Shown here piece by piece: positions 7,868 through 32,189 of a stretch of DNA of 41,687 bases (position 1 is the first letter of the stretch; each line of letters opens with the position of its first letter). Both the position numbers and the translations under genes were made by a program. The notes below the pieces were generated by a model that saw only the letters and a program-made list of their open reading frames with translations, had not been told where the DNA came from and made no database searches. This DNA comes from an uncultured delta proteobacterium. Its GTDB lineage: Bacteria; Desulfobacterota; Syntrophia; Syntrophales; Smithellaceae. The stretch is from contig CAIVQG010000050.1 in the NCBI GenBank assembly GCA_903907985.1, positions 1 to 41,687 on the forward strand, given 5' to 3'.

Positions 7868-9033
7868 CGTGGCTTAATGCAAAGCTGAAATACGTTGCTC
7901 GCTTTGGCTATGGCGATGGGTTGCCTGCTAACGAAGCCCAGGACGGTGCATTTCGAGTTTATGGATCGAATGGACCATATTCCTACTTCTCAAAAGTGAA
8001 CACTGGGGCTCCAGCAATAATCGTGGGGCGCAAGGGTTCATATGGGAAAGTCAACTGGACACCCGAACCATGTTTCGCATCTGATACCACCTTTTTCATC
8101 GATGCTTCAACGTGCAACCATGAGCTGCGCTGGGTTTATTGGCTATTGCAGACACTTCGTCTGGACGAAGGAACAGATGAGGCTGCTGTGCCAGGTCTAA
8201 ATCGTGAAACTGCTTATGCCAAGGACGTTAAAGTTCCAGAACTATCGCTGCAACGTGCAATTGCCGACTACCTAGACCGCGAGACTGCGAAAATAGATGC
8301 AATGATTGCCGCAAAAGGGAGACAGTTAGATTTACTGGCGGAGAAAAGACGAGCATTTATCACACGTGCTGTAATATGTGGCCTTGACCCAAAAGTCTCC
8401 CTCCGCGATTCAGGTATTACTTGGCTTGGAAAGACTCCGGTTCATTGGGATACTAAGCGTGTCAAATACCTGTTTCGACTTGTTACAGAACAAGCCCCAG
8501 CAGACAACGATTATGAATTGCTTTCATTATATACAGATATTGGAGTCCGTCCAAGGAAAGAGATGGAAGCTAGGGGTAATAAGGCTACAACAACCGATAA
8601 TTACTGGCTTGTGCGCCCGGGTGATTTGATAGTGAATAAACTGCTTGCTTGGATGGGCGCATTTGGAATATCAGAATATGAAGGTGTGACGAGTCCGGCC
8701 TATGATATCCTTAGACCTATTAATGGTGTCAATACGGCTTATTACCATCACCTATTTCGATGTGGCGTATGTATTCCAGAAATTCATCGGAGATCAAGGG
8801 GAATTATGGATATGAGGCTGCGTTTATATTTTGATGAACTCGGTGATATGCGCGTTCCCGTCCCACCCCTCCCTGAGCAACAAGCCATTGTTGAACACAT
8901 TACTCACGTAACTGCAAGAATGGACGCTATGAGCGACGCGACAAAACGAACAATCGCACTTCTTAAAGAACGCCGTGCCGCACTCATCACAGAAGCTGTA
9001 ACTGGCAAGACAGAGGTCAAGCTGAAACAATGA
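7864..9033 (+). CDS. hsdS: Type I restriction specificity subunit HsdS
   Basis: The DNA-recognition subunit, 389 residues, with two target recognition domains: about residues 1-130 and 180-325. Each is followed by a conserved helical spacer (LQRAIADYLDRETAKIDAMI at about 125-150, and LPEQQAIVEHI at about 335-350). A GTG start overlapping the hsdM stop is accepted because the overlap is typical and the first residues already belong to the first domain. The four-base ATGA junction at 9030 links it to the ATPase gene. The first domain is slightly short at its N-terminus compared with many HsdS proteins. Confidence 0.93.
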   Translation: MTWLNAKLKYVARFGYGDGLPANEAQDGAFRVYGSNGPYSYFSKVNTGAPAIIVGRKGSYGKVNWTPEPCFASDTTFFIDASTCNHELRWVYWLLQTLRLDEGTDEAAVPGLNRETAYAKDVKVPELSLQRAIADYLDRETAKIDAMIAAKGRQLDLLAEKRRAFITRAVICGLDPKVSLRDSGITWLGKTPVHWDTKRVKYLFRLVTEQAPADNDYELLSLYTDIGVRPRKEMEARGNKATTTDNYWLVRPGDLIVNKLLAWMGAFGISEYEGVTSPAYDILRPINGVNTAYYHHLFRCGVCIPEIHRRSRGIMDMRLRLYFDELGDMRVPVPPLPEQQAIVEHITHVTARMDAMSDATKRTIALLKERRAALITEAVTGKTEVKLKQ

Positions 9034-10277
9034 TAATCAACAGTATCAATGTAACTAATCTTAGAGCTATCGAGTACGCGGAATTTGAGTTCAGGCCAGG
9101 CATGAACCTTATCGTCGGCGTAAATGGCGTTGGCAAAACCACGCTACTTGATGCATTACGTATTTGCCTATCGCAGGTTTTAGCCGATATAACCGTATCG
9201 CGTAGTCGCCTGCAATTTAACAATTATGATATTCGACTACAAGCTGAGTTTCTGGATGTTACGTGCAAATTTAATCTTAATAAAGAAGAATTTAGTTACA
9301 TAATGCATAGAAACAGGGACAATATAATATGGCTGGAGTCGGACAGTGTTCGTGAACAAACCAAGGAAAATCCAAATAAGAAGGAATATTATCCACCTTT
9401 AACAGTAGCGGCCAAGAAGATCAAGCAATCTCAATGTCAACCTGTCGGCGTGTTCTTTGGTACTCGAAGATCATTGATCTCCGATGTGGCACCCGCAAAA
9501 TCTAGCATAGCTGGTGGTCAGGTTGCTGCATTTGCAAATGCGCTATTGGACAGAGAAATCAGGCAACAGGAAATTGCAGCTTGGATTCTTGCCCAAAAAG
9601 AACTTGGACGAGAACAACCTTTGGCCTTGAAGCATCTTAGGGTGATGCAGCAAGCTTGCAATTTATTCATGCCGGGCTATACCAATTTGAGGGTAGCTAC
9701 TTCACCGGAGCGTTGTTTAGTTGTCGACAAATCCGGAGAAACACTAGAATTTAGGCAGCTATCTGACGGTGAGCGCAGTATGTTTGTTATTGCATTAGAG
9801 ATTGCTAAAAGGCTTTCTCAAGCAAATCCGTTTCTTGAAGACCCAGTTAAAGATGGCAGCGCTATTGTTTTGATTGATGAAATTGACCTGCATCTTCACC
9901 CAAAATGGCAACGAACAATAGTGAATCAACTAACAAAGACATTTCCAAGCTGTCAGTTTATTGCAACAAGCCATTCACCCCAGATCATCGGTGAAGTTGA
10001 AAATGATCGAATCCAGATAATTGCCGACGGTCAGGTCTATTCACCGACTTACTCTTTTGGCGTCGATTCCAGTCGGGTGCTGGAAGAGATTATGGCTTCT
10101 GAACCTCGCACCACGGCGGTGAAAGCACTGCTTGCGGAGATCTCCCGGAAAATTGGGGAGCAGCAATTTGAAAGCGCGCGGGAATTGCTGGAAAAGCTCA
10201 GCAAGCTGCTTGGAGATGGTGACCCCGAGGTGACAAGGTTACGTATTCTTCTCGACTTCGTTGAAGGAAAGGAATGA
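9030..10277 (+). CDS. PtuA-like AAA/ABC-type ATPase (Septu-like, inside the hsd operon)
   Basis: A 415-residue SMC/RecF-type ATPase. Walker A is GVNGVGKT at 30-37, a signature-like LSDGERS precedes a helix at about 245-260, Walker B is LIDEID with D283/E284, and the His-switch motif is ATSHSP. There is no TOPRIM nuclease domain, unlike OLD or Gabija A. It overlaps hsdS and the HNH gene by four bases each. An ATPase followed by a TIGR02646/PtuB-like HNH protein is the composition of the Septu anti-phage system, where PtuA forms a complex with PtuB. Here the pair is embedded between hsdS and hsdR. The Septu label is from family knowledge; no homology search was run. Confidence 0.82.
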   Translation: MIINSINVTNLRAIEYAEFEFRPGMNLIVGVNGVGKTTLLDALRICLSQVLADITVSRSRLQFNNYDIRLQAEFLDVTCKFNLNKEEFSYIMHRNRDNIIWLESDSVREQTKENPNKKEYYPPLTVAAKKIKQSQCQPVGVFFGTRRSLISDVAPAKSSIAGGQVAAFANALLDREIRQQEIAAWILAQKELGREQPLALKHLRVMQQACNLFMPGYTNLRVATSPERCLVVDKSGETLEFRQLSDGERSMFVIALEIAKRLSQANPFLEDPVKDGSAIVLIDEIDLHLHPKWQRTIVNQLTKTFPSCQFIATSHSPQIIGEVENDRIQIIADGQVYSPTYSFGVDSSRVLEEIMASEPRTTAVKALLAEISRKIGEQQFESARELLEKLSKLLGDGDPEVTRLRILLDFVEGKE

Positions 10278-10918
10278 GAAATATCATCAAAGGCTCGGAG
10301 CCGCTAAGTTTGACAACTCATCGCCAGACGCCACACAGCGATTATGACAACTACGCGGACAAAGATACTCTGCGGCATGCGCTGCTAACAGAACAAAAAG
10401 GTCTTTGTTGCTATTGCATGAAGAGGATTTACAACGGCCCAGACACTATGAAGATTGAGCATTGGCACTGCCAAGCAAATCATGAAAACGAACAGCTTAA
10501 TTACCAAAACATGCTTGGCGCGTGCATAGGCGGGAAAGGTCAACCGCCGCATCTCCAACACTGCGATACGCGAAAAGGTAACTGTGATCTGAAATGGAAT
10601 CCGGCTAATCCAGCCCACAGGATTGCGTCACGACTGCGCTATGAATCGGATGGCAGTATTCGATCTGATGATATAGAGTTCGACACTCAGATCGAGAATG
10701 TACTGAATCTTAATATACCATTCTTAAAGAATAATCGAAAAGGGGTATTGGATGCTATTCTTTATTGGTGGCACGATGAGAAGCATCGTCTATGTGGTCC
10801 GGTGCCGAAGGCACAGTTCGAGCGTATGCGTGATCGTTATATTGCAGGGCATGGTGAACTTCAGCCATATTGCCAGATAGCGGTCTGGTGGTTGGAACAA
10901 CGATTATCAAGGATATAA
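10274..10918 (+). CDS. PtuB-like HNH nuclease (TIGR02646-like)
   Basis: A 214-residue HNH/zinc-type nuclease. GLCCYC (C45, C46, C48) followed by IEHWHC (H63, H65, C66), then an Asn-rich segment and HCDTRKGNCD, give the metal-binding and catalytic pattern of the TIGR02646 group. Members of this group act as the nuclease partner of PtuA or retron-type ATPases. ATG 10274 overlaps the ATPase stop (ATGA), so coupling is very likely. The stop is three bases before hsdR. In this setting it may work with the ATPase as an independent abortive defence or as a backup to the type I enzyme. Confidence 0.85.
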   Translation: MRNIIKGSEPLSLTTHRQTPHSDYDNYADKDTLRHALLTEQKGLCCYCMKRIYNGPDTMKIEHWHCQANHENEQLNYQNMLGACIGGKGQPPHLQHCDTRKGNCDLKWNPANPAHRIASRLRYESDGSIRSDDIEFDTQIENVLNLNIPFLKNNRKGVLDAILYWWHDEKHRLCGPVPKAQFERMRDRYIAGHGELQPYCQIAVWWLEQRLSRI

Positions 10919-10921
10919 GGA

Positions 10922-13900
10922 ATGAGTGACACACGCCATTCGGAGACAGCATTCGAAACCGTGATCGAAACACATCTTTTGTCGAACGGATATGAAGTGA
11001 TAGATCGCGGCAGCTTTGATCGCGAAAAGGCGATCTTTGCCGAAAGAGTACTGGCTTTTATAAAAGAAACACAGCCGAATGAATGGAACAAACTGGAAGC
11101 GTTACATGGCGGTAAAACCGGTGAACAGATTATCAGCGATCTATGGAAATGGATGGATGCAAACGGATCGCTTGCAACACTACGTCATGGTTTCAAGTGC
11201 TATGGTCGGACACTGCGGATAGCTTATTTTAAGGCAGCGCATGAACTTAATCCTGAGCTTGAGGCACGCTATAAGGCAAACTGTCTTGGCATTACCCGAC
11301 AACTTCATTATTCTGACAAGTCTGAAAAGTCTCTCGATGTAACAATAAGTCTCAACGGTATACCGATTATAACTGTGGAATTAAAAAATCCCTTAACCGG
11401 ACAAACTGTTGATAATGCCATTAGGCAGTATATGCGAGATCGTGACCAGCGCGAACCCATCTTTGAATTTAAGCGCAGAACTTTAGTGCATTTTGCCGTG
11501 GATACAGAAGCTATATTCATGACCACAAGGCTTGCAGGTAAAGCCAGCTACTTCCTTCCATTTAATAAAGGAAATGCAGGCGGTGCGGGAAATCCACCCG
11601 ATCCGGCAGGACGGACATATAGAACGGGTTATCTATGGGAAGAGATTCTTCAACGCGATAGTCTTCTTGATCTTCTTGCCCGGTTTCTTCATTTGCAGAT
11701 TGAGGAAAAGATGACCGACGAAGGGAAAAAGATTAAGAAAGAAAGCATGATCTTTCCGCGCTACCATCAGTTACAGGCTGTACGTACGATTGTAAACGCA
11801 GCGCGGGAAGAAGGTGTTGGACATAATTACCTTGTGGAGCATTCTGCAGGCAGTGGTAAAAGCAATACCATCGGTTGGTTAGCGCACCGTCTTTCATCGC
11901 TTCATGATTTGCAAAACCAACGCGTTTTCGATTCTACCATTGTTATTACTGACCGCATTGTTCTTGATCAGCAGTTGCAGGATACTATTTATCAGTTTGA
12001 ACACAAACGTGGAGTTGTGCAGAAAATTGATGAGAGTTCTCAGCAATTAGCAGAAGCTTTAGAGAATACCGTACCGATTATCATTACAACACTCCAAAAA
12101 TTTCCCTTTGTATCAAAACAATTATTGAAGATGGCTGAAAAGAGGGGAGAAGCGCATACTGGACGACTGCCTACACGAAAATGTGCGGTTATCATTGATG
12201 AAGCGCACAGTTCTCAAGGTGGTGAGACAGCCACCGATCTCAAGGAAGTGCTGGGCGGTGAAGTCTTACACGAAGAGGCGAAAAGGCGTGCTTTTGAAGA
12301 AGGCATGGACAACATGGAAGAACTCTTCCGCAGTATGGCTAAGCGCGGGAAACAAGCTAATATCAGCTTCTTTGCTTTTACGGCAACACCGAAGCATAAA
12401 ACGCTTGCTGTTTTTGGACGCAAAGGCGAACCTGCTCATCGTTATGCGATGCGACAGGCCATTGATGAAGGTTTTATCCTTGATGTCCTGAAATACTATA
12501 CAACCTACGCCACATATTATAAGTTATTAAAAGTCTGTGAAGATGACCCGAACGTTGAACGCAAAAAAGCTGCTAAAGCACTGGCACGTTTTCTCAGGCT
12601 TCATCCTGCCAATATTGCGCAAAAGACTGAATTGATGGTGGAGCACTTCAATTCGGTAACCCGTCATAAAATAGGTGGCCATGCCAAGGCAATGGTTTTA
12701 ACAGGCTCCCGTTTGGAAGCAGTGCGATACAAACAAAACTTTGACCGGTACATCAAGTCTAAAGGATATCCCATTAAGTCTCTAGTTGCATTTTCTGGTA
12801 CGGTGCAAGATGACAAATTATCTGGTGTGAACTATACGGAAGTGGGAATGAATCAGGGTGTAAAAGAAAAAGAACTTCCGGAAAAATTTGCGACACCTGA
12901 GTACAGCGTATTACTGGTTGCTGAAAAGTATCAAACCGGTTTCGATCAGCCTCTATTACACACAATGTATGTGGATAAACGGCTCGCAGGAATTCAAGCT
13001 GTACAGTCATTGTCCCGGCTTAATCGGACGCATCCACTCAAAGAAGACACTTTCATCCTCGATTTTGTAAACAAGCGCGAAGAGATTCACGATGCTTTCA
13101 AAGCATATTATGAGGGTGCAACAATGGGTGAAGAGGTGGATCCTGCGCGAATGTACCAGATCAAAGGTGAACTTGATGCTTCTGGCGTATATTTGAACGA
13201 AGAAGTCATCCGGTTTGGCGAGATATATTTCAAGCCCAAACAGCGGCAGAGTGCCGGTGACCACCAAGCCATGAATGCAGTTTTAGACCCGGCTGTCGAT
13301 CGTTTCAAAGCACTACAAGACAGCGACGAAGAAAATGCGGAACTATGGCGTGGAAAGCTTTATTCATTCCGTAATCTGTATTCATTTTTGAGCCAAATCA
13401 TTCCATATCAGGATTCAGACCTGGAAAAGCTTTACGTCTTTTTACGTCATTTATCAGCCAAACTCCCGCGGCGTAAACGTGGTCCGGAATATAATTTCGA
13501 CGATGATGTGCGTCTGGAATATTACAGGCTTCAGAAGATCAGCGAAGGGTCTATTGATTTGAAGAGTGGACATGCATATGCGCTAGACGGTCCAACAGAG
13601 ATCGGCACTGGTACAGTGCATGAAGAGCAAGTCGCTTTATCCCGATTAATTGATGTTGTGAATGAAAGGTTTGGTACTGATTTTAATCAGGCAGACCAAC
13701 TATTCTTTGACCAAATTGTTGAAGCAGCTGTAACCGACGAGATATTAAAACAAGCAGCAGCCGTTAATCCTGAAGATAAGTTCGAATTGGTTTTTAAGAA
13801 TTTATTAGAAACTCTTTTTGTGGAACGTATGGATCAGAATGAAGAAATATTTGGAAAGTTTATGAACAATCGTTCGTTTAAAAAAGTTGTTACGAACTGG

Positions 13901-13948
13901 TTGGCAGCGGAAGTATATAAGAGACTACGTGGTAGTGCGGTATCGTAA
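10922..13948 (+). CDS. hsdR: Type I restriction endonuclease subunit HsdR
   Basis: The restriction and translocation subunit, 1008 residues. The N-terminal PD-(D/E)xK nuclease has D139 and E153-x-K155 (VELKN), followed by the QxxxY-type helix (NAIRQY). The SF2 motor has Walker A AGSGKS ending at S314, DEAH at 426-429, FTATP, and later helicase motifs including EKYQTGFD and QSLSRLNR. The C-terminal 250 residues would bind the methyltransferase core. ATG 10922 has AAGGA directly before it. All key catalytic residues are present, so the enzyme looks intact. It closes the operon. Confidence 0.96.
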   Translation: MSDTRHSETAFETVIETHLLSNGYEVIDRGSFDREKAIFAERVLAFIKETQPNEWNKLEALHGGKTGEQIISDLWKWMDANGSLATLRHGFKCYGRTLRIAYFKAAHELNPELEARYKANCLGITRQLHYSDKSEKSLDVTISLNGIPIITVELKNPLTGQTVDNAIRQYMRDRDQREPIFEFKRRTLVHFAVDTEAIFMTTRLAGKASYFLPFNKGNAGGAGNPPDPAGRTYRTGYLWEEILQRDSLLDLLARFLHLQIEEKMTDEGKKIKKESMIFPRYHQLQAVRTIVNAAREEGVGHNYLVEHSAGSGKSNTIGWLAHRLSSLHDLQNQRVFDSTIVITDRIVLDQQLQDTIYQFEHKRGVVQKIDESSQQLAEALENTVPIIITTLQKFPFVSKQLLKMAEKRGEAHTGRLPTRKCAVIIDEAHSSQGGETATDLKEVLGGEVLHEEAKRRAFEEGMDNMEELFRSMAKRGKQANISFFAFTATPKHKTLAVFGRKGEPAHRYAMRQAIDEGFILDVLKYYTTYATYYKLLKVCEDDPNVERKKAAKALARFLRLHPANIAQKTELMVEHFNSVTRHKIGGHAKAMVLTGSRLEAVRYKQNFDRYIKSKGYPIKSLVAFSGTVQDDKLSGVNYTEVGMNQGVKEKELPEKFATPEYSVLLVAEKYQTGFDQPLLHTMYVDKRLAGIQAVQSLSRLNRTHPLKEDTFILDFVNKREEIHDAFKAYYEGATMGEEVDPARMYQIKGELDASGVYLNEEVIRFGEIYFKPKQRQSAGDHQAMNAVLDPAVDRFKALQDSDEENAELWRGKLYSFRNLYSFLSQIIPYQDSDLEKLYVFLRHLSAKLPRRKRGPEYNFDDDVRLEYYRLQKISEGSIDLKSGHAYALDGPTEIGTGTVHEEQVALSRLIDVVNERFGTDFNQADQLFFDQIVEAAVTDEILKQAAAVNPEDKFELVFKNLLETLFVERMDQNEEIFGKFMNNRSFKKVVTNWLAAEVYKRLRGSAVS

Positions 13949-14148: not shown

Positions 14149-15249
14149 ATGCCGCTCGAAATTAACGTTTGGCGCATCGATCATGGTTTGACTCCCGTTG
14201 TCTTTGGCCCACTTGACATTGAATTCCGCTTGGAAAAAATCCTAGATGAAAATATAGACATCGCTTCCCCGAATTGGCTCGTAATAGGACGGCAAGTAAG
14301 AACCGATCATGGGCTTTTCATAGATTTACTTGCGATTGATCGTGATGCCAATTTAGTTGTCATAGAACTAAAGCGCAATAAAACCTACCGGGACATCGTT
14401 GCGCAGCTGCTCGATTACGGCTCTTGGGTCCGTGAGCTGAGAGATGATAAAATCGCAGAAATTTATGATGAATATCAGAAACACTGGCATAAAGGTCGCC
14501 CTTCAGTGTCCATAGATGATGCGTTCAGAAAAAAGTTTAAGATTACAATACCTGATGAGATAAACTCAACTCACGAATTGGTAGTAGTAGCAGCAAGCCT
14601 AGATCCGAGTACAGAACGTATTGTGCGCTATCTTGCAGATGAGTACGGCGTTCGAATCAATGCAGTGTTCTTCAGGGTGTTTCAGGACGAAAAACGCGAG
14701 TATCTCAGCCGGGCATGGTTCCGAGACCCTGCAGAAGTAAGTGCAGGCTTAAGCGAAGAAACTACTTCCGGGGAATGGAATGGAGAGTACTACGCATCTT
14801 TCGGATATGACTTAGAAACAGTTCGTGATGGACTCAAGAGGGGTTACCTAGTTGCCGGTGGTGGTTTATGGTATTCTCAAACCCTCGCAATGCTTGAGCC
14901 AAATGCCCGTATTTGGGCAAACGTGCCAGGTGCCGGTTATGTGGGTGTAGGAATAGTTACGCAAGGGATGGTTCCAGTGGATGAATTTACGGTGTCAAAC
15001 AAATCTGGTAAAAATGTTCGAATCATTGATGTCTCTCCAGCAGCTGCGAAACTAAACCGCGCGAAGAAAAACCCTGAAACAGCTGATTATCTTGTGCGCG
15101 TCAAATGGCTAAAGACCTTTGACCCAAAAGATGCCATCCACGAAAAAGGTTTTTTTGGCAACCAAAACTCAGTTGCTAGGCCGCGTTCCCCAAAATGGGA
15201 TCATACCATTAAACGTCTTAAAATGAGATTTGGCATTAAGGAGACTTAA
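14149..15249 (+). CDS. DUF91/NucS-like PD-(D/E)xK nuclease
   Basis: A 366-residue protein whose first 110 residues form a PD-(D/E)xK core: D59 in LFIDLLAID, then E73-L-K75 in VIELKRN, then an alpha-helix with LLDYGSWVREL. This matches the DUF91 group related to NucS-type nucleases. The remaining 250 residues are of unknown fold and end in a basic tail. ATG 14149 follows GAAAGGAAG. It starts 200 bases after hsdR and is probably a separate unit. Intact catalytic residues suggest an active nuclease in the defence cargo; substrate unknown. Confidence 0.72.
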   Translation: MPLEINVWRIDHGLTPVVFGPLDIEFRLEKILDENIDIASPNWLVIGRQVRTDHGLFIDLLAIDRDANLVVIELKRNKTYRDIVAQLLDYGSWVRELRDDKIAEIYDEYQKHWHKGRPSVSIDDAFRKKFKITIPDEINSTHELVVVAASLDPSTERIVRYLADEYGVRINAVFFRVFQDEKREYLSRAWFRDPAEVSAGLSEETTSGEWNGEYYASFGYDLETVRDGLKRGYLVAGGGLWYSQTLAMLEPNARIWANVPGAGYVGVGIVTQGMVPVDEFTVSNKSGKNVRIIDVSPAAAKLNRAKKNPETADYLVRVKWLKTFDPKDAIHEKGFFGNQNSVARPRSPKWDHTIKRLKMRFGIKET

Positions 15250-15345
15250 AATTTTCTTTGATCTTAAAGTAATTAGGGCCGGTTCCAGTTAATTCCGAAT
15301 ATGCCAAAGATACAGAAAGTCGGTTTATAATGAATTAGAAAGATT

Positions 15346-16326
15346 ATGGATTGCTTTATGAAAAAACCATTATCAAAATTAACTAAAGTTAATTTGCGGG
15401 AAGTCTGGGAACATGAGGCTCTCGATTTTACAAATTGGCTTGCACAGAAAGAAAACCTCGATATTTTAAGCGAGGAAATAGGTATTGACATTAAGCTCGT
15501 TAAAACTGAGGCATATGTCGGGCGTTTTAGTGTTGATATTTTAGCCGAAGAAGAAAACTCTGGTAGAAAAATCATTATTGAAAATCAACTTGAAGATACA
15601 AATCATGATCATCTCGGCAAAATAATAACTTATGCTGCTGGCTATGACGCTGAAATGATTATTTGGATTGTCAGAGATGCTAGAAAAGAACACCAAAAGG
15701 CGTTGGATTGGCTAAATGAGCATACCGACGAGAAAATAGGTTTCTTTTTGATTAAACTTGAACTTTGGCAAATTGAAGGATCAAACCCTGCGCCCAAATT
15801 TGAAATTATAGCCAGCCCAAATGAATGGGCAAAAACAATTAAAACGGGTGCCGCGGATGCTTCTTTAACCGATACGAAACTTCAACAGTTAGATTTTTGG
15901 TCAAAGTTTAAAGAGTATGTTCAGAAAAAAGATTCGAATATTCGTTTGCAAACCCCCGGCCCTAAACATTGGTACGATGTGAGTATGGGAACCGCAGAAG
16001 CCCACATTGCCTTGACTATTAATTCCCGTGAAAACCTGATTGCCTGCGATATTTATATCAAAAACAATAAACCACTATTTAATTTCCTACGCGAAAAGCA
16101 AGCAGAAATAGAAAACGAAATTGGAGAAAAACTTGAGTGGGTTGATGCCACGGTTGCGTCAAGAATTAAAATTATTAAGAAAGTTCCAGATATCTTTGAT
16201 CAAGTGGGAGCAGATAATTATTACGATTGGCTTTATAAAAAAACTGTTTTATTTCAAACAGTGTTCGCTAAGTATTTTAAAGAGTTTAAAAAGAATAACA
16301 ACAGCCTAGATTTAGTAAATCAATGA
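15346..16326 (+). CDS. DUF4268 family PD-(D/E)xK-like protein
   Basis: A 326-residue protein with the DUF4268 layout. A helical N-terminus (LREVWEHEALDFTNWLA) is followed by a nuclease-like core with D64 in FSVDILAEE and E79-N-Q81 in IIIENQLE, then DHLGKIITYAAG. Position 81 is Q rather than K, a variant seen in some PD-(D/E)xK families. The second half (about 180-320) is the DUF4268 alpha/beta domain. ATG 15346 is used; ATG 15358 would match the usual family start and cannot be excluded because neither has a clear ribosome binding site. Probably an element-borne accessory or defence nuclease. Confidence 0.75.
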   Translation: MDCFMKKPLSKLTKVNLREVWEHEALDFTNWLAQKENLDILSEEIGIDIKLVKTEAYVGRFSVDILAEEENSGRKIIIENQLEDTNHDHLGKIITYAAGYDAEMIIWIVRDARKEHQKALDWLNEHTDEKIGFFLIKLELWQIEGSNPAPKFEIIASPNEWAKTIKTGAADASLTDTKLQQLDFWSKFKEYVQKKDSNIRLQTPGPKHWYDVSMGTAEAHIALTINSRENLIACDIYIKNNKPLFNFLREKQAEIENEIGEKLEWVDATVASRIKIIKKVPDIFDQVGADNYYDWLYKKTVLFQTVFAKYFKEFKKNNNSLDLVNQ

Positions 16327-18391: not shown

Positions 18392-18544
18392 TATCCTCTG
18401 GAATATACAAGGCGCATCTGTTGGAAATGCCATCATACCTTGCCACTTGGCCTAATAATTTATTCAACTTAACATTGGTTGACAGATTATCTATGAAGCG
18501 TGTATGTTTAACAATCCAAAACCACAGTCAATCTAAGGTTCCTT

Positions 18545-18952
18545 ATGGCTGATGACAAAAAAACAATTCTTCAGATCAAGAAAAAAATAAAAACTTTTAT
18601 AAAAGAAAGAGATTGGGAAAAGTTTCATTCTCCAAAAAATTTAAGTATGTCTCTTGCTATAGAAGCATCAGAGCTAATGGAGATATTTCAGTGGTTAACG
18701 ACGGAAGAAGCGAATGTAGATCAATTAACAAAGAATCAAAAAAAGAGAATCGAAGAAGAAATTGCTGATATCGGTATATATCTTTTTGATTTATGCAATG
18801 TTTTAAATATAGACGTAAGTTGTGCGATTGAAAACAAATTAAAGCTAAACAGATGCAAATACCCCGTTAAATTAGCAAAAGGTAAAGCTGAAAAGTACAC
18901 AGCATATAAGGAGACGAGAATTGCTAAAAGAGATGCTCGAAAGAATAAGTAA
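18545..18952 (+). CDS. MazG-like nucleotide pyrophosphohydrolase
   Basis: A 135-residue all-alpha NTP pyrophosphatase of the MazG/RS21-C6 type, which hydrolyses (d)NTPs to the monophosphate and pyrophosphate. The metal-binding ExxE (E40, E43 in IEASELMEIFQW) and ExxD (E72, D75 in EEIADIGIYLFDL) pairs are present. The C-terminus is lysine-rich, ending KDARKNK. Its last 32 bases overlap the start of the DUF3578-HNH gene. It sits in a defence cargo rather than in a housekeeping operon, so a role against altered phage nucleotides or in depleting the pool is plausible. Confidence 0.85.
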   Translation: MADDKKTILQIKKKIKTFIKERDWEKFHSPKNLSMSLAIEASELMEIFQWLTTEEANVDQLTKNQKKRIEEEIADIGIYLFDLCNVLNIDVSCAIENKLKLNRCKYPVKLAKGKAEKYTAYKETRIAKRDARKNK

Positions 18953-20000
18953 AGAATATAACTATACCAACACCTCCTCAGATGTCTTTCAATTAATTAC
19001 CGACCAAGGGCCTAATGCTATAAGAACACTCGGTCATATATCAAATGACTATAAAATTTATGGCAAGCACGGACAAGGAAACACAGCTCGTGTGCCATGG
19101 ATTGTGATTTGCGATAGAAGCGTGACTACATCAGCACAAAAAGGATATTATATAGTTTATTTATTTAATGCTGAAAATAAAGGTGTGTACTTATGCTTGA
19201 ATCAAGGGTGGACTGATTACGAAAATAAGTATGGAATCCAAAGAGGCAGAATTGAAATAAAAAAAACTGCAATAAATTGTCGTAACTTAATTAATTCATC
19301 TTTGTCTACTTTTAATACATTTGACATAGATTCAGGAGCTGATTCTACTTTGGCTCGTGGTTATGAATTGGGACATATATGCGGCAAGTTTTATCCCTCC
19401 AATAATATTCCACCAGATAATATCTTAATTAATGATTTAAGAAATTTAATGGGCATTTACTCTGACCTAAAAGGCCTCTTGTTAAATCATAATACTCCAA
19501 TTACAGGAGCTACAAATATTGTAAAAAAGATTAAAGAAGAAAGTGAATTAATAGAAGATGCTGAATACCAAAAAGAGGTTGAGAAGGCAGCAGCTGTCTT
19601 AATTCCAAATAGTCCACAACCAAAGCCAGTCTTCTCTTCAAGAGGTAATGTTAAAAGTTGGACAAAAAATCCGGGGATAGCGAGACAAGTCCTGGAAGGA
19701 AAAAATTATCAATGTGAAGTTAATAATAGTCATATTACATTTACGTCTGAGGTAACAGGTAGGAATTATGTTGAGTGTCACCATTTAATACCTATGAAAA
19801 TTCAGGACAGCTTTCAAAATAGTTTAGATGTCCCAGCAAACATTATTGCTTTATGTCCAAATTGTCACAGATTATTTCACCATGCAAAAAATGACGAGAA
19901 AGCAAATTTGATAGAAAAATTCCATCAAGAGAGAGAAAATAAATTAAGAAATTTTGGTATTTGTATAACAATAAGTGATTTAATAAGATATTATGCTTGA
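18921..20000 (+). CDS. DUF3578 (MrcB N-domain-like) - HNH endonuclease fusion
   Basis: A 359-residue protein. Residues about 1-170 match the DUF3578 domain found at the N-terminus of McrB-like proteins (VPWIVICDRSVTTSAQKGYY, YLCLNQGWTDY). Residues about 240-335 carry an HNH nuclease with ECHHLIP (E285, H287, H288) and CPNCHRLFHH (C312, C315, H316). The TTG start at 18921 is given; ATG 18933 is an alternative, and both overlap the MazG gene. The architecture suggests a modification-sensing (type IV-like) restriction enzyme. That is inferred from domain families; no substrate evidence is in the sequence. Confidence 0.8.
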   Translation: MLKEMLERISKEYNYTNTSSDVFQLITDQGPNAIRTLGHISNDYKIYGKHGQGNTARVPWIVICDRSVTTSAQKGYYIVYLFNAENKGVYLCLNQGWTDYENKYGIQRGRIEIKKTAINCRNLINSSLSTFNTFDIDSGADSTLARGYELGHICGKFYPSNNIPPDNILINDLRNLMGIYSDLKGLLLNHNTPITGATNIVKKIKEESELIEDAEYQKEVEKAAAVLIPNSPQPKPVFSSRGNVKSWTKNPGIARQVLEGKNYQCEVNNSHITFTSEVTGRNYVECHHLIPMKIQDSFQNSLDVPANIIALCPNCHRLFHHAKNDEKANLIEKFHQERENKLRNFGICITISDLIRYYA

Positions 20001-20222: not shown

Positions 20223-21791
20223 ATGAGCAATTTACTAAAAGAACTAATGAACAATCATGGCCCATGCTTGAGCACTGACCTCACAAAAATTCTAGCTAAG
20301 GAGCATAGCCTATCCGAAGAAACAGCGCGTAAGCGAGTGTCGAGAGGATTTGCGGAACTAAAACGGCTCCCCTATCTAACTTTCCCACGAAAAGCGCGGT
20401 TCATTTATCTTCAAAATGATTATAATTCCCCGCAATACTGGGAGGCCCTCAAGAAGTCAATTCTAGACAACAGTCCAGCCTACGGTCCAGCCTTAGCCTC
20501 CTTGATACAGCGTGGCGGATTGATTCCTAAGGAGCACTTTCATATTGTATGTGGTGCACCTCTGCGCCAGAAAAAACATTTGTCATCTGAGATAATCCTC
20601 TCTCGCTTAATACGGGCCGAGGTAGTTAAAGAACTTGCTGTTCCGGGTATCGGGCCGTGTATTGCCTTAACGGGAATGCTCACAGGTAGTGAACCCGATG
20701 TAAATCAGTTGAGAGCTCGCTTAGTCACCGAGGCAATTTTATTAAAAGCCATCCGAATGTGGGTCCGCAACCTAGGTATTGCAAGTTTTAATAAAGTTGC
20801 CTTACGGGACGAAGGTAATATGATGCCAAAGGTAGGGACTTTTGTTTGGGACCTGACGGGTCCTAGTTACTTAGCTCCCATGGTAGATTGGAACAAACAG
20901 GGAAAGCCGGTTCCTGGTTTTATCGCCTGTGATATTCTGCTCGGCTCGGAGGTAGACGAAATAGGACTTCGCCCCTTTCTTCAGAAAATCTCTACATTGA
21001 AGAGTTTGAAACGAATAGGTCGATGTCTATATATATTTGTGGCTGATAGTTATACGTCACTTGCATTTCGCAAAGCCAAGGAGAAAGGGATTATCCCGGC
21101 GACACCTGAAACACTATTCGGAAGTGAGGTGGCCCAAGGTCTTGCACGCCTAACAGAGGTACTGACTCAAGCCGCGAAATTAAGCATTAATCCCGATGTT
21201 TTTGATGAGTTATTTCAGCGCTTAGGAAAGATCGAGGGAGCTACAGGCAATCTACGTGGTGCGCTGTTCGAGTTCATAGTCGCAGAGTTGGTTCGTCAGA
21301 CTATAAGCTCTCAAGTCATGCTCAATCAAATTATAAAAGATTATGAAACCGGCGCTCAGGCGGAAGTGGATGTGCTGGCAGTAAAAAAGAACCGCACGGT
21401 TCATTTCATTGAATGCAAAGGCTATCACCCTTCGAGTGTAGTTGCGGACGATGAAGTGGAACGTTGGCTGAGTAATCGAATCCCATTGATCCGAAAGTAT
21501 GCCCTGCAGCATCCAGAATGGAAGCATCTGGAACTCCACTTTGAATTCTGGACCACCGGTAATCTGTCCAATATTGCAGTCAAAATGATAGACAAAGCTA
21601 AGGCTACTACAAGAAAATACGAAATCGAGTATCGTAACGCTATGGCCGTCCAAGCTTACGCGCTCGAGGTTAAAGACCCATCATTGTTAAAGACCCTTAA
21701 TAACCATTTTCTTGAACATCCGATGCTAACGATTGAGACAGCTGTAGAGAAGCAAAAGGCCAGGGCAAAGCGCTCACACAATGAAAAATGA
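20223..21791 (+). CDS. wHTH - PD-(D/E)xK nuclease-like protein, family not recognised
   Basis: A 522-residue protein. The N-terminus (1-70) resembles a winged helix (CLSTDLTKILAKEHSLSEETARKRVSRG, then LTFPRKARFIYL). A middle region of about 280 residues has no known fold. At 355-440 there is a restriction-like core: a helix with ALFEFIVAELV, then D383 in AEVDVLAV and E397-C-K399 in FIECKGY. ATG 20223 follows AGGGAGCTA. It has its own 220-base AT-rich upstream region and is the last gene before att2, a common cargo position. I infer a stand-alone restriction or defence nuclease. Confidence 0.7.
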   Translation: MSNLLKELMNNHGPCLSTDLTKILAKEHSLSEETARKRVSRGFAELKRLPYLTFPRKARFIYLQNDYNSPQYWEALKKSILDNSPAYGPALASLIQRGGLIPKEHFHIVCGAPLRQKKHLSSEIILSRLIRAEVVKELAVPGIGPCIALTGMLTGSEPDVNQLRARLVTEAILLKAIRMWVRNLGIASFNKVALRDEGNMMPKVGTFVWDLTGPSYLAPMVDWNKQGKPVPGFIACDILLGSEVDEIGLRPFLQKISTLKSLKRIGRCLYIFVADSYTSLAFRKAKEKGIIPATPETLFGSEVAQGLARLTEVLTQAAKLSINPDVFDELFQRLGKIEGATGNLRGALFEFIVAELVRQTISSQVMLNQIIKDYETGAQAEVDVLAVKKNRTVHFIECKGYHPSSVVADDEVERWLSNRIPLIRKYALQHPEWKHLELHFEFWTTGNLSNIAVKMIDKAKATTRKYEIEYRNAMAVQAYALEVKDPSLLKTLNNHFLEHPMLTIETAVEKQKARAKRSHNEK

Positions 21792-22455: not shown

Positions 22456-23586
22456 ATGCCAAAGCAAGAAAGAATTAAAACGAAATATCCGGGCGTTTAT
22501 TTCATTCATAAAGGCGATGAGAAAGTATTTTATATCTTCTATCGGCTCAATGGCAGGCAGGTTGAAGAAAAGGCAGGCCGTAAATTTGCTGATGATATGA
22601 CGGCGGCAAAAGCGGCAGGTATCCGGGCAAATCGTATGCAAGGCAAAGAAGTTTCCAATAACGTACGGCGCGAAAAGGCGCAAGCGGCGAAGCAGTCAGA
22701 GACCGACAAGATGACAATTAAACGCCTATGGGATGAATACAAGACAAATAAGGCCGATTCCAAATCAATCAATACGGACGAAGGCCGTTATGAAAAATAC
22801 CTACTGCCTATTTTCGGTGATAAAGAACCGCACGAATTAATCAGGCTTGACGTTGATCGTTTGAGAATGAAACTGCTAAAAACGTTGAAGCCTCAGACAG
22901 TAAAGCACGTTATGGGATTGCTCAAGCGAATAGTCCACTATGGGGCGGCGCGGGAATTATGCCAGAACCTTAATTTTGAAATCGAAGCCGTGAAAGTGGA
23001 TAATCAAAAAACAGAAGATTTAAACCCCGAACAATTAAAGAAGCTGCTGGAAGCTATAGACAATTCATCGGACGTTGAAGCAAAAGCTATTATGAGGCTT
23101 GCTCTATATACAGGTATGAGGCGCGGGGAAATGTTCAAGCTGAAATGGAATGACATTGACTTTCAACGGGGGTTCATTGCCATAAAGAACCCGAAAGGCG
23201 GCGTGTCCCAGAAGATACCCCTCAATGAACAAGCGCGGCAAATATTAGAGAATCATCCCCGGACTGCTGAAAACGTTTTTGTCAGGCCGGACGGTGAACC
23301 CTTTACGGATATTCGGCGGCGCGTGAACCCGATCAAAGAGGCGGCAGGCATAACGGGCGATTTTCGCGCCCTTCATGGCTTGCGGCATACTTACGCTTCC
23401 ATGTTGGCTTCATCCGGCAAAGTTGATTTATATACCCTGCAAAAGCTCTTGACGCACAAGTCCCCGATAATGACACAAAGATATGCTCACTTGAGGGATG
23501 ATGCGTTAATAAAAGCGTCAACATTGGCCGGGAATATCATTGAACAGGCAATAAGCAACAAAGAACAGGACACCGCAAACGCATAA
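22456..23586 (+). CDS. Tyrosine recombinase / integrase of element 2
   Basis: A site-specific recombinase of 376 residues for element 2. The catalytic residues R222, H307, R310, H334 and Y343 are all present, in the same motifs as integrase 1. The start ATG 22456 follows AAGAGGTG at good spacing. Overall it is collinear with the integrase at 963-2126, with the largest differences in the N-terminal arm-binding domain. That fits the different arm-motif variants (CTGGGGA versus GTGGGGA) despite a shared att core. Its leader holds promoter and arm sites, as in element 1. Confidence 0.95.
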   Translation: MPKQERIKTKYPGVYFIHKGDEKVFYIFYRLNGRQVEEKAGRKFADDMTAAKAAGIRANRMQGKEVSNNVRREKAQAAKQSETDKMTIKRLWDEYKTNKADSKSINTDEGRYEKYLLPIFGDKEPHELIRLDVDRLRMKLLKTLKPQTVKHVMGLLKRIVHYGAARELCQNLNFEIEAVKVDNQKTEDLNPEQLKKLLEAIDNSSDVEAKAIMRLALYTGMRRGEMFKLKWNDIDFQRGFIAIKNPKGGVSQKIPLNEQARQILENHPRTAENVFVRPDGEPFTDIRRRVNPIKEAAGITGDFRALHGLRHTYASMLASSGKVDLYTLQKLLTHKSPIMTQRYAHLRDDALIKASTLAGNIIEQAISNKEQDTANA

Positions 23587-29762: not shown

Positions 29763-32189
29763 GTGAATATGTCTGTTTATCAAAAAATATTGGTAGTGTG
29801 TTTTGCACTTTTTATTTCTTCTTGTATGTCTTTTAAGCCTGTTCTGACAGCAAAGAATGCTGATATGTCCCGGGAGATTAAACAAAAAGCTCCGAAGGTG
29901 AGTAAAGTAGATATCTCTCCGGATGGACGCTATGTTTTATCTGGCGGTCTTGATTCTTTTATTCTCTGGGACATTCTGCAAGGGAAGAAAATACAAACAT
30001 TCTCTCATCCCAAAGGTGAAATGGTTGATACAACTGCAGTCGCTTTTTCGCCTGACGGAAAATATTTTGCCTCTGGTGGCAGAGGAACAAAACTTTGGGA
30101 ATTTGCCACAAGACAAGAAATAATGACATTTAACAATGATAGAATTGTCTCAATAGCTTTTTCTCCAGACGGGAAATATTTATTATGTGGAGGCCCTCTT
30201 GACGTGCCTCTGTTTTCTAAAAACATGCCTCCAACAATGAAAATTTTTGAAGTATCGTCAGGAAACGAAGTAAGAGATTTTAAATTACAAATACGTGCCT
30301 ATGATAATATTTGGTCTGTTGCCTATTCTCCGGATGGCAAATATGTCTTATCAGGCAGCGGTTGCGGAATGAGTTTATGGGATATATCAAGTGGAAGGAA
30401 GCAGCGGCAAGTTGGTCAATGCGTCATGCTAAATGCTGTAGCCTTTTCTTCAGATGGTGAATATGCCTTGTCCGGTGGAAGGGATAAAAGCCTCATATTG
30501 TGGAATGCAAGAAATTTAACTCAGATCAAGAATTTCGTCGGGCATACAGATAAGTATGGGATTTCCTCTGTAGCTTTTTCGTCGGATGGCAAATATGCCT
30601 TATCAGCGTCCTATGAAGGTCAGGTGAAAATCTGGGAGTTAGCATCAGACACTGAAAGAAGTGTTCTTGATGGTCATAAAGGTATGCATCTAGAACTACT
30701 CGGCACATCGGCTAAATTTTCCCCCACCGGCAAGTATGTAATATCCGCTGGAGACGCCTCTACGAGAATCTGGGATGTGGCCACGGGAGAAGAAATTGCA
30801 TCCATGATCGCTTTTGAAGACGGGGAATGGCTTTTCATAACAGCCGAAGGTTACTACAACGCCTCTGAGAAAGGCGCACAGTATTGGAATGCTACAGTAG
30901 GTGATAAGTCTTACAGCGTTGATCAGTTTTACGACGTCTTCTACCGCCCGGACATTGTGGCGGCAAAACTGAGGGGAGAAGACATTAAAAACCTTATTAC
31001 CATCACCATGAAAGACGCCATAAAAAGCCCTCCACCGACTGTGGAGATTGCAAATCCTAAGGATACCGACTCACCCAAGATCAAGGTATGCTACTCCGTC
31101 AGGAACACCGGCGGCGGAATAGGTGAAGTCAGATTATTCCACAATGGCAAACTCATCCAATCGGATGGCTATTACAGGGAGGTGGCCAAGATTTCAATCG
31201 GAACGACCCAACTCGCTTTGTTAAACAGCAGGTCAATCTATGCCGATATGAGGAGCCTCAACATCAAGGCCAAAACAGACTCTACGGTTATAACCAGCAA
31301 ATCGAAGGGAGAACTCTTTGAAGACTGCAAAGAGATAGACGCCATTGCTGGTGAGAACGAGATTAGCATCTCCGCCTTTAACAGCAGCAACACGGTTCAG
31401 AGCTACATGAAAACCATTACTTTCAACTCTGGGATCAAGTCTGCGGATCCCCATCTTTATATCCTTTCCATCGGGATAGACCAGTACACAGACAATAGCG
31501 TCAATCTCAAATATGCTGTCAAGGATGCAAAAGAGCTAGAGGAGAAAATCAAAACACAGTCTGCCACATTGTATAAACCCCAAAACATTCATTATTCACT
31601 CGTGACAGACAGAGATGCAAACAAGGCAAATATCCTTAATAAAATAAATGAACTTGCCAATACCATCAAGCCACAAGACAGCTTTATCCTTTTTGTGGCT
31701 GGTCACGGCGTACTGTTACAGAACCAGTATTATATGCTTACCCATGACTTCAATGGGCAAGTAGGTGACACAAACATGATCAGTTCTAACGAGATCGTAG
31801 AAATGTCCAAGAAGATAAAATCATTGAACCAGCTTTTCATCTTTGATACCTGCCATGCCGGGGGAGTTGATACCATCGTCAGCGGCCTTTATGACGCCCG
31901 AATGTCAGTGCTTGCCAAAAAGATGGGGCTGCACATTTATGCATCCGCCAGCGACAAGCAAGCGGCAATGGACGGGTATAAAGGTAACGGTCTTTTTACC
32001 TATAGCTTATTGGATGGTCTTAACAACAACAAAGCTGCCGACAAAAACAAAGACGGCAAGGTCAGCATTGTGGGACTGGGTGAATATTCAAAGAAGATGA
32101 CGACGGATATATCCAAAGAAATTGGTCACAGTCAAACGCCGTTGATTATCAATTTCGGGAAAGACAGCCCCATCTATAAATTGCAGTGA
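29763..32189 (+). CDS. WD40-repeat caspase-like (peptidase C14) lipoprotein
   Basis: An 808-residue secreted protein. A signal peptide ends at the lipobox ISSC with Cys19. Residues about 40-345 contain WD40-type repeats recognisable by SPDGKY and SSDGKYALS blades and terminal W-D/W-E units. A linker domain with a Tyr-rich start (YYNASEKGAQYW) spans about 350-555. A C-terminal caspase/metacaspase domain (about 560-800) has H648 in VAGHG and C697 in FDTCHAGG. Catalytic residues are intact, so a protease anchored outside the cytoplasm is expected. It stands alone with its own palindrome upstream. Its substrate and trigger are unknown. Confidence 0.9.
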   Translation: MNMSVYQKILVVCFALFISSCMSFKPVLTAKNADMSREIKQKAPKVSKVDISPDGRYVLSGGLDSFILWDILQGKKIQTFSHPKGEMVDTTAVAFSPDGKYFASGGRGTKLWEFATRQEIMTFNNDRIVSIAFSPDGKYLLCGGPLDVPLFSKNMPPTMKIFEVSSGNEVRDFKLQIRAYDNIWSVAYSPDGKYVLSGSGCGMSLWDISSGRKQRQVGQCVMLNAVAFSSDGEYALSGGRDKSLILWNARNLTQIKNFVGHTDKYGISSVAFSSDGKYALSASYEGQVKIWELASDTERSVLDGHKGMHLELLGTSAKFSPTGKYVISAGDASTRIWDVATGEEIASMIAFEDGEWLFITAEGYYNASEKGAQYWNATVGDKSYSVDQFYDVFYRPDIVAAKLRGEDIKNLITITMKDAIKSPPPTVEIANPKDTDSPKIKVCYSVRNTGGGIGEVRLFHNGKLIQSDGYYREVAKISIGTTQLALLNSRSIYADMRSLNIKAKTDSTVITSKSKGELFEDCKEIDAIAGENEISISAFNSSNTVQSYMKTITFNSGIKSADPHLYILSIGIDQYTDNSVNLKYAVKDAKELEEKIKTQSATLYKPQNIHYSLVTDRDANKANILNKINELANTIKPQDSFILFVAGHGVLLQNQYYMLTHDFNGQVGDTNMISSNEIVEMSKKIKSLNQLFIFDTCHAGGVDTIVSGLYDARMSVLAKKMGLHIYASASDKQAAMDGYKGNGLFTYSLLDGLNNNKAADKNKDGKVSIVGLGEYSKKMTTDISKEIGHSQTPLIINFGKDSPIYKLQ

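Follow-up and report, generated by a model that had tools for sequence, protein, structure and literature searches.

Why should the gene for a putative nucleotide hydrolase overlap the gene for a nuclease that is predicted to read modified DNA? This question was raised by two forward-strand genes in a 41,687-nucleotide contig from an uncultured delta proteobacterium of the Smithellaceae, here called the window, by which the whole analysed stretch is meant. The reading we prefer, with a probability of roughly 0.45, is that both genes police the same C5-cytosine mark, the nuclease in DNA and MazG in the dNTP pool, mainly preventing self-attack. The MazG-like gene (18545..18952, forward strand, ATG start, 135 aa) was assigned to the Pfam MazG-like family PF12643, and the DUF3578-HNH nuclease gene (18921..20000, forward strand, TTG start, 359 aa) to PF12102, HNH_2 and HNH. 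The overlap described in a first-pass annotation was confirmed and comprises 32 bp (18921..18952, forward strand), the TTG start lying behind AAGGAGA. It would be 20 bp instead if the nuclease began at the next in-frame ATG (18933). TTG was favoured as the start because of AAGGAGA just upstream and because the ATG of the closest homologue, from locus L012, aligns with it (MLKEL against (M)LKEM). Chance or an annotation artefact was ruled out as the origin of the overlap by recurrence of the pair in other genomes and by the L012 start alignment. A consensus scan found a promoter-like site, TTGACA-18-TATGTT, upstream of MazG (18479..18508, forward strand, 10/12 matches), which is weak evidence because the region held 19 such sites against 10.3 in shuffles. 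We infer that MazG and the nuclease are jointly expressed. The GC content of the two genes, 32.1% against 43.8% for the whole window, falls in the lowest 1% of same-length stretches within the window, as if they had been acquired together. The nearby gene at 15346-16326 is likewise low in GC (35.6%).

The gene pair sits amid a defence-like region of the window. Type I restriction-type genes were read from the ORF translations at 5882-13948, with an AAA-ATPase-like gene (9030-10277) and an HNH-like gene (10274-10918) lying between them. Two adjoining genes at 14149-16326 matched PDC-S11, a candidate family of PADLOC, with E 3.5e-127 and 9.6e-119. The 522-aa gene at 20223-21791, which lies 222 bp past the nuclease and has a NERD/PD-(D/E)XK-like C-terminal part (Pfam marginal, PADLOC weak), is probably a separate unit. 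Two tyrosine-integrase-like genes that are alike (963-2126 and 22456-23586, the Pfam analysis covering the second) flank the defence region, which may represent a nested or tandem integrative element. The 808-aa protein encoded at 29763-32189 appears, by its motifs, to combine WD40-like repeats with a caspase-like C-terminal part.

The nuclease scored 172.7 bits against MrcB_N/DUF3578 (PF12102, cut-off 25), and HNH_2 (29.1 bits) and HNH (25.0 bits) were both over the Pfam cut-off. An AlphaFold (AF2) model built from 25 sequences (mean pLDDT 92, pTM 0.68) resembled the DNA-binding domain of E. coli McrB in residues 1-195 (Z 11.4, rmsd 3.6, 146 aligned; VIA-align) and the HNH of EcoKMcrA in residues 242-343 (Z 10.5, rmsd 2.5, 94 aligned, 30% identity), the likeness of the HNH to ScoMcrA being weaker (Z 8.2). 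A profile search with the nuclease family retrieved EcoKMcrA (E 3.5e-15), ScoMcrA (0.0022) and the McrB domain (0.0094). HNH residues H287, H288, H316 and H320 are invariant in 25 sequences and N307 is nearly so, and the protein matches the PADLOC-DB 2.0.0 model mREase_IV. Judged by their titles, structures of the McrB DNA-binding domain include complexes with 5-hydroxymethyl-, 5-formyl- and N4-methylcytosine DNA. The domain also binds 5mC. In E. coli McrB, DUF3578 is the domain that binds methylcytosine, according to the accessible parts of PMC11090510 and PMC7641849. By its architecture the window protein is predicted to be a single-chain modification-dependent (type IV) restriction enzyme, and its specificity is presumably for C5-modified cytosine.

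Among type IV modification-dependent enzymes, where its predicted architecture would place it, the nuclease corresponds to neither McrBC nor EcoKMcrA. It has a reader fold in common with McrBC but would cleave by HNH. McrBC was ruled out because the nuclease has no GTPase domain, MrcB_N and the HNH domains being the only Pfam matches above cut-off; no McrC match was found by Pfam, PADLOC or NCBIfam among the neighbours at 20223-21791 and 18545-18952. The HNH is related in sequence and fold to those of EcoKMcrA, ScoMcrA and TagI, but the MrcB_N reader is unlike their NEco, SBD-SRA or SRA domains, and membership of the EcoKMcrA family was rejected because the NEco N-terminal domain is absent. 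The nuclease also differs from these three in being overlapped by a hydrolase gene, a MazG partner going unmentioned for them in the accessible portions of the literature. VcaM4I (EVE-HNH) follows the same reader-HNH logic with a different reader fold, and the accessible literature on it likewise mentions no hydrolase partner.

The MazG-like protein scored 47.7 bits against PF12643 (cut-off 27) and missed the threshold of the MazG family PF03819 (13.5 bits, cut-off 22). Against PADLOC-DB 2.0.0 it matched GajA alone, over a short stretch (E 0.0085). Its closest PDB matches were RS21-C6 / dCTP pyrophosphatase 1 (DCTPP1), with E 3.5e-22. DCTPP1 is a housekeeping enzyme of animals, and we know of no nuclease with which it is paired. 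The DCTPP1 pocket consists of H38, W47, E63, E66, W73, E95, D98 and Y102 (PMC4491611, accessible part). Residues W24, E40, E43, W50, E72, D75 and Y79 of MazG align with W47, E63, E66, W73, E95, D98 and Y102, so that 7/8 pocket residues are kept and H38 is replaced by I15. The catalytic ExxE...ExxD is present, E40, E43, E72 and D75 being invariant in 11 sequences. In the text available from PMC4491611, DCTPP1 is described as a dCTP/5-methyl-dCTP pyrophosphatase that prefers dCTP and its C5 derivatives. Based on the kinship to DCTPP1/RS21-C6, MazG probably hydrolyses free C5-modified dCTP.

Hydrolysis of dCTP itself by DCTPP1, found in the same partial source (PMC4491611), would suit a different role, in which MazG drains ordinary dCTP on infection and starves the phage while the nuclease forms a separate layer. 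We regard this as highly improbable, since the Km of DCTPP1 is higher for dCTP than for 5-methyl-dCTP and cellular dCTP was without visible change in cells with DCTPP1 knocked down or overexpressed (PMC4491611, as far as accessible), and since Pfam, PADLOC and NCBIfam showed MazG to have no recognisable trigger domain.

The first-pass annotation had proposed counting how often the two families co-occur. A scan of genome contigs with the nuclease gave 43 loci. MazG and the nuclease are neighbours on a Priestia plasmid (L002) and in Flavicella (L013), Bacillus (L018), Terribacillus (L020) and Pontibacter (L031); in Candidatus Zapsychrus (L026) MazG stands at the nuclease locus with a DUF2075/SLFN gene between. 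Both gene orders occur. The nuclease-bearing set consists of 23 genome entries, probably 22 genomes as two have identical nucleases. This MazG was found in 8/23 entries, in 9 copies, and was absent from 15; it lies at the nuclease locus in 6/8 MazG-bearing entries (5/8 copies when the window's own is left out). Random placement in 3.4 Mb genomes would put 0.016 MazG copies within 3 kb of a nuclease, so that 6 of 9 copies at the nuclease is a pairing beyond chance.

MazG on the same strand within 3 kb was found for 7/39 DUF3578-HNH genes (6/38 without the window), for 7/48 HNH genes that have a different N-terminus (6 loci), and for 0/51 DUF3578 genes without this HNH, many of the last having flanks of about 1.5 kb, in which downstream partners may be missed. 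These counts refer to unique genes of the nuclease-centred searches, loci from the MazG search and repeat fetches being excluded. They indicate that MazG tracks the HNH type of the nuclease and not the reader, and MazG as a partner of the DUF3578 reader per se was rejected on the 0/51. Contrary to an exclusive link with this nuclease, MazG was also seen next to SLFN-type helicases and to HNH nucleases that carry other readers. Independent occurrence, which the first-pass annotation had named as evidence against its proposal, was indeed the rule for the nuclease: 30/39 DUF3578-HNH genes had neither MazG nor a NudG-like gene on their strand at a distance of up to 3 kb, an approximate count that includes short-flanked loci and the near-copies L003/L004 and L005/L028. 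MazG is therefore optional for the nuclease. Likewise, 15/22 other nuclease-bearing genome entries had no copy of this MazG anywhere. Full-length nuclease was found among 395 genomes of the window's phylum in the window and G263 only, and three further samples of the phylum gave few. Two Paenibacillus plasmids (L003, L004) carry the DUF3578-HNH gene followed by a DUF2075-type helicase gene, without MazG; the N-terminal part of that helicase gene is, by motif, presumably GIY-YIG-like.

Partners appear to have been exchanged between nucleases and MazGs, to judge from the two trees. For the 8 nucleases linked to MazG, the nuclease tree (quick search) requires 6 label changes, of which starred branches force 5; label shuffles give 7.3. 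In the MazG tree, where few forks are resolved, the 9 DUF3578-linked copies need 8 parsimony changes, 2 of them forced by well-supported branches; shuffles needed 8.6 and were as low in 162/500.

A replacement of MazG is seen in L012, whose nuclease is the sister of the window nuclease in the nuclease tree (46% identity, SH-aLRT 99). A genome search found no MazG in the L012 genome (G397). A Nudix gene occupies the slot of MazG, with an 8-bp overlap between its end and the start of the nuclease gene. Similar Nudix genes stand beside the nuclease in L002, L013, L016 and L031, a convergent Nudix gene beside L027 not being counted as a partner. All five scored higher against PDB 2rrk than against MutT (1mut): 75.0 against 58.6 bits in L012, where the best PDB match was 3ees (84.1), 87.9 against 44.3 in L013, 69.9 against 45.3 in L016, 102 against 57.5 in L031, and a near tie of 74.7 against 72.4 in L002. 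For the Nudix proteins of L013 and L031 only, 2rrk was the top PDB match. We take 2rrk to be E. coli NudG, relatives of which are absent from the window's cassette. The Nudix fold is unrelated to the MazG fold. E. coli NudG (Orf135) is, besides DCTPP1, the other published 5-methyl-dCTP hydrolase (PMC10742078, in the part accessible). That a single slot holds either of two unrelated folds for which the same substrate has been reported is the strongest functional clue obtained here.

Both hydrolases could also be connected to the nuclease through a signalling nucleotide, for example an alarmone, which they would hydrolyse and which would control the nuclease. MazG proteins have been linked to ppGpp. 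PMC7593582, as far as accessible, deals with (p)ppGpp and the Nudix hydrolases of E. coli. Still, the nuclease consists of a reader and an HNH, with no further nucleotide-binding domain recognised by Pfam, the AF2 model or fold comparison, and what links the two unrelated partner types is 5-methyl-dCTP, which makes a signalling role the most improbable of the explanations weighed here.

Viral contigs were scanned with both hydrolase families. The Nudix scan gave 76 loci, of which the 74 with a Nudix ORF by model were examined. An HNH partner abutting or overlapping the Nudix gene was found by model in 8/74 (L276, L278, L282, L283, L284, L286, L287, L292) and by reading in two more (L277, L291), which have cut-short HNH domains and no partner-model match. 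All 10 are among the members most similar to the query, and their nucleases are SRA-like or PUA-like. The SRA calls are sub-threshold in Pfam (SAD_SRA with E 0.0014 in L278, DUF3427 in L276), and the SRA identity of L276, L278 and their relatives is presumed from sequence motifs.

The MazG scan of viral contigs gave 80 loci, many of them near-copies. In 46/80 the downstream gene belongs to one family with a YTH/EVE-like reader, a fold modelled in one member, L139, of which residues 1-177 resembled the N-terminal domain of T. gammatolerans McrB (Z 15.1) and VcaM4I (Z 10.5) while the C-terminal part was poorly predicted. The YTH-like domain of T. gammatolerans McrB binds 6mA according to the accessible parts of PMC12707154 and PMC7897488. 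In several members (L180, L199, L207) Pfam gave no HNH match, and their HNH nature is taken from alignment only. At 11 loci an HNH gene lies upstream of MazG, its reader EVE-like by reading (Pfam found HNH only in the two scanned, L168 and L194). L190 has a DUF3578-HNH gene, L237 an MrcB_N protein with another C-terminus and L239 a Pua-like NOV_C protein. Altogether 63/81 viral MazG ORFs (80 loci) had a recognised partner, corresponding to 23/39 clusters at 80% identity.

This MazG was present in 34/380 genomes of the window's phylum, and 30 of these 34 matches were inspected for partners. A nuclease, reader or SLFN-type helicase partner was found at 15/30 loci (14/29 without the window), or in 13/25 clusters. 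The partner counts are partly circular, 4/6 models (lff, evehnh, cog3440, l252) having been built from MazG-adjacent genes. A non-circular Pfam tally was made of 73 co-directional MazG neighbours of 120 to 1,099 aa, with one locus per cluster and none from 8/64 clusters. It gave HNH_2 10, HNH 9 (the two may overlap), ResIII 9, SLFN-g3 helicase 8, N6_N4_Mtase 5 and MrcB_N 3. Among 97 other genes of the MazG loci, HNH_3, GmrSD_C, ResIII and N6_N4_Mtase occurred 2 times each, and HNH_2, HNH, SLFN-g3 helicase and MrcB_N were missing from the 25 commonest families. The SLFN-type helicase is a second recurrent partner of MazG. In the window's phylum the loci L244, L245, L251, L253, L260 and L261 carry a helicase gene of the SLFN group 3/DUF2075 type directly downstream of MazG. 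In the window's family MazG was found in 3/8 genomes, and in the two besides the window (L266 and L267) its neighbour is another gene, an HNH nuclease by reading.

A joint mechanism might be dispensed with altogether if MazG and Nudix genes were mutation-avoidance or fitness genes hitch-hiking in defence islands and prophages. At the other half of the inspected MazG loci of the phylum (15/30) no adjoining nuclease or SLFN partner was recognised, and 64/74 viral Nudix loci had no HNH gene of the kind described directly beside, as hitch-hiking would predict. The overlap of the genes, the repeated association on both trees, the MazG tree being poorly resolved, and the 0/51 for DUF3578 genes without this HNH argue against it, and we consider it improbable.

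Turning to the reading we prefer, the McrB-like domain of the nuclease would bind 5-methyl- or 5-hydroxymethylcytosine in DNA and the McrA-like HNH would cut, whereby foreign or phage DNA carrying C5-modified cytosine would be restricted. The co-expressed MazG would hydrolyse the matching free triphosphates, 5-methyl-dCTP and its relatives. Neither salvaged modified dCTP nor that of a co-infecting phage would reach resident DNA, and the nuclease could stay armed. In most restriction-modification systems methylation marks self; here self would be maintained by barring the mark from the precursor pool. Tolerance, we infer, is the purpose of coupling MazG to the nuclease.

Self-protection is favoured by the distribution of C5-methyltransferases. 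PF00145 was detected in 0/6 genomes with MazG at the nuclease, the window's included, compared with 10/14 control genomes (two-sided Fisher p 0.011), the controls being unmatched in taxonomy and some hosts being draft or metagenome assemblies. The search of the window's genome, which covered the C5-cytosine type, gave no PF00145 match. Among 10 nuclease hosts tested, PF00145 was present in 2, the hosts of L016 and L019; the nuclease is linked to Nudix in one of them and solo in the other.

The first-pass annotation had seen the pair as a possible two-step defence against phages with modified bases. In that scheme MazG drains the hydroxymethyl- or methyl-dCTP of the phage and the nuclease cuts DNA that is still modified; in a pincer version, the drained phage DNA would be left open to ordinary restriction by the neighbouring type I system. 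The recurrent pair, the modified-base-reader build of the nuclease and the dNTP-type hydrolase all held up; MazG itself proved optional and not specific to this nuclease. The defence-like surroundings (type I-like genes at 5882-13948, PDC-S11 at 14149-16326), the frequent occurrence of such pairs on viral contigs and the preference of DCTPP1 for dCTP and its C5 derivatives (PMC4491611, accessible part) are all compatible with phage attack. The logic suffers from the fact that MazG, by removing modified dNTPs of the phage, would strip the very mark that its partner nuclease reads, and from the hydrolase being of a house-cleaning type, with another house-cleaning type in the L012 slot. Given the replacement of MazG by Nudix and the hosts in which no C5-methyltransferase was detected, self-protection fits at least as well, and we judge phage attack to be rather unlikely, although it remains the foremost competitor.

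Several observations also count against self-protection. The nuclease is mostly without MazG, the order of the MazG and nuclease genes varies, and H38 of DCTPP1 is not conserved in MazG. Furthermore, 5-methyl-dCTP may have no source in bacteria that are not infected; 5-methyl-dCMP kinases are known from phages and have not been identified in mammals, according to the accessible part of PMC10742078. The YTH-like reader of L139, from the commonest prophage partner family, suggests that a mark other than C5-modified cytosine may be read in some cases.

No model for both genes exists in PADLOC-DB 2.0.0 and the literature search found none, in agreement with the first-pass annotation, to which the combination was not known as a named system. 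SauUSI is a type IV restriction enzyme. MutT homologues adjoin SauUSI homologues in the Fig. 9 legend of PMC7641849, the accessible text of which proposes no mechanism; this is a restriction enzyme with a hydrolase next door, but the nuclease is another one and the hydrolase is Nudix, not MazG. MazG is listed among uncharacterised predicted defence domains in the part of PMC13092281 that is accessible. A MazG- or NudG-coupled modification-dependent nuclease was not found described in the literature searched, partly in excerpt, most subscription journals lying outside it.

The pairing suggests a new way of keeping a defence nuclease off the cell's own DNA. Modification-dependent nucleases are usually called safe since the host lacks the modification. 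If coupled precursor cleaning is true, this safety needs active upkeep, the MazG and Nudix genes of prophages and defence islands gain a role, and the mark that a nuclease reads should be predictable from the substrate of its cleaner, and vice versa. We tentatively extend the idea to a widespread class, which may well be drawn too broadly, in which an HNH nuclease combines an exchangeable reader (DUF3578, SRA-like, EVE-like or YTH-like) with an exchangeable guard of the dNTP pool (DCTPP1-like MazG or NudG-like Nudix). If such a class is real, self is what the cell refuses to incorporate and not what is methylated. At one viral locus (L140, 3096-5393) a probable SRA-HNH gene, MazG and a YTH-like-HNH gene stand in a row, placing two HNH nucleases around one MazG.
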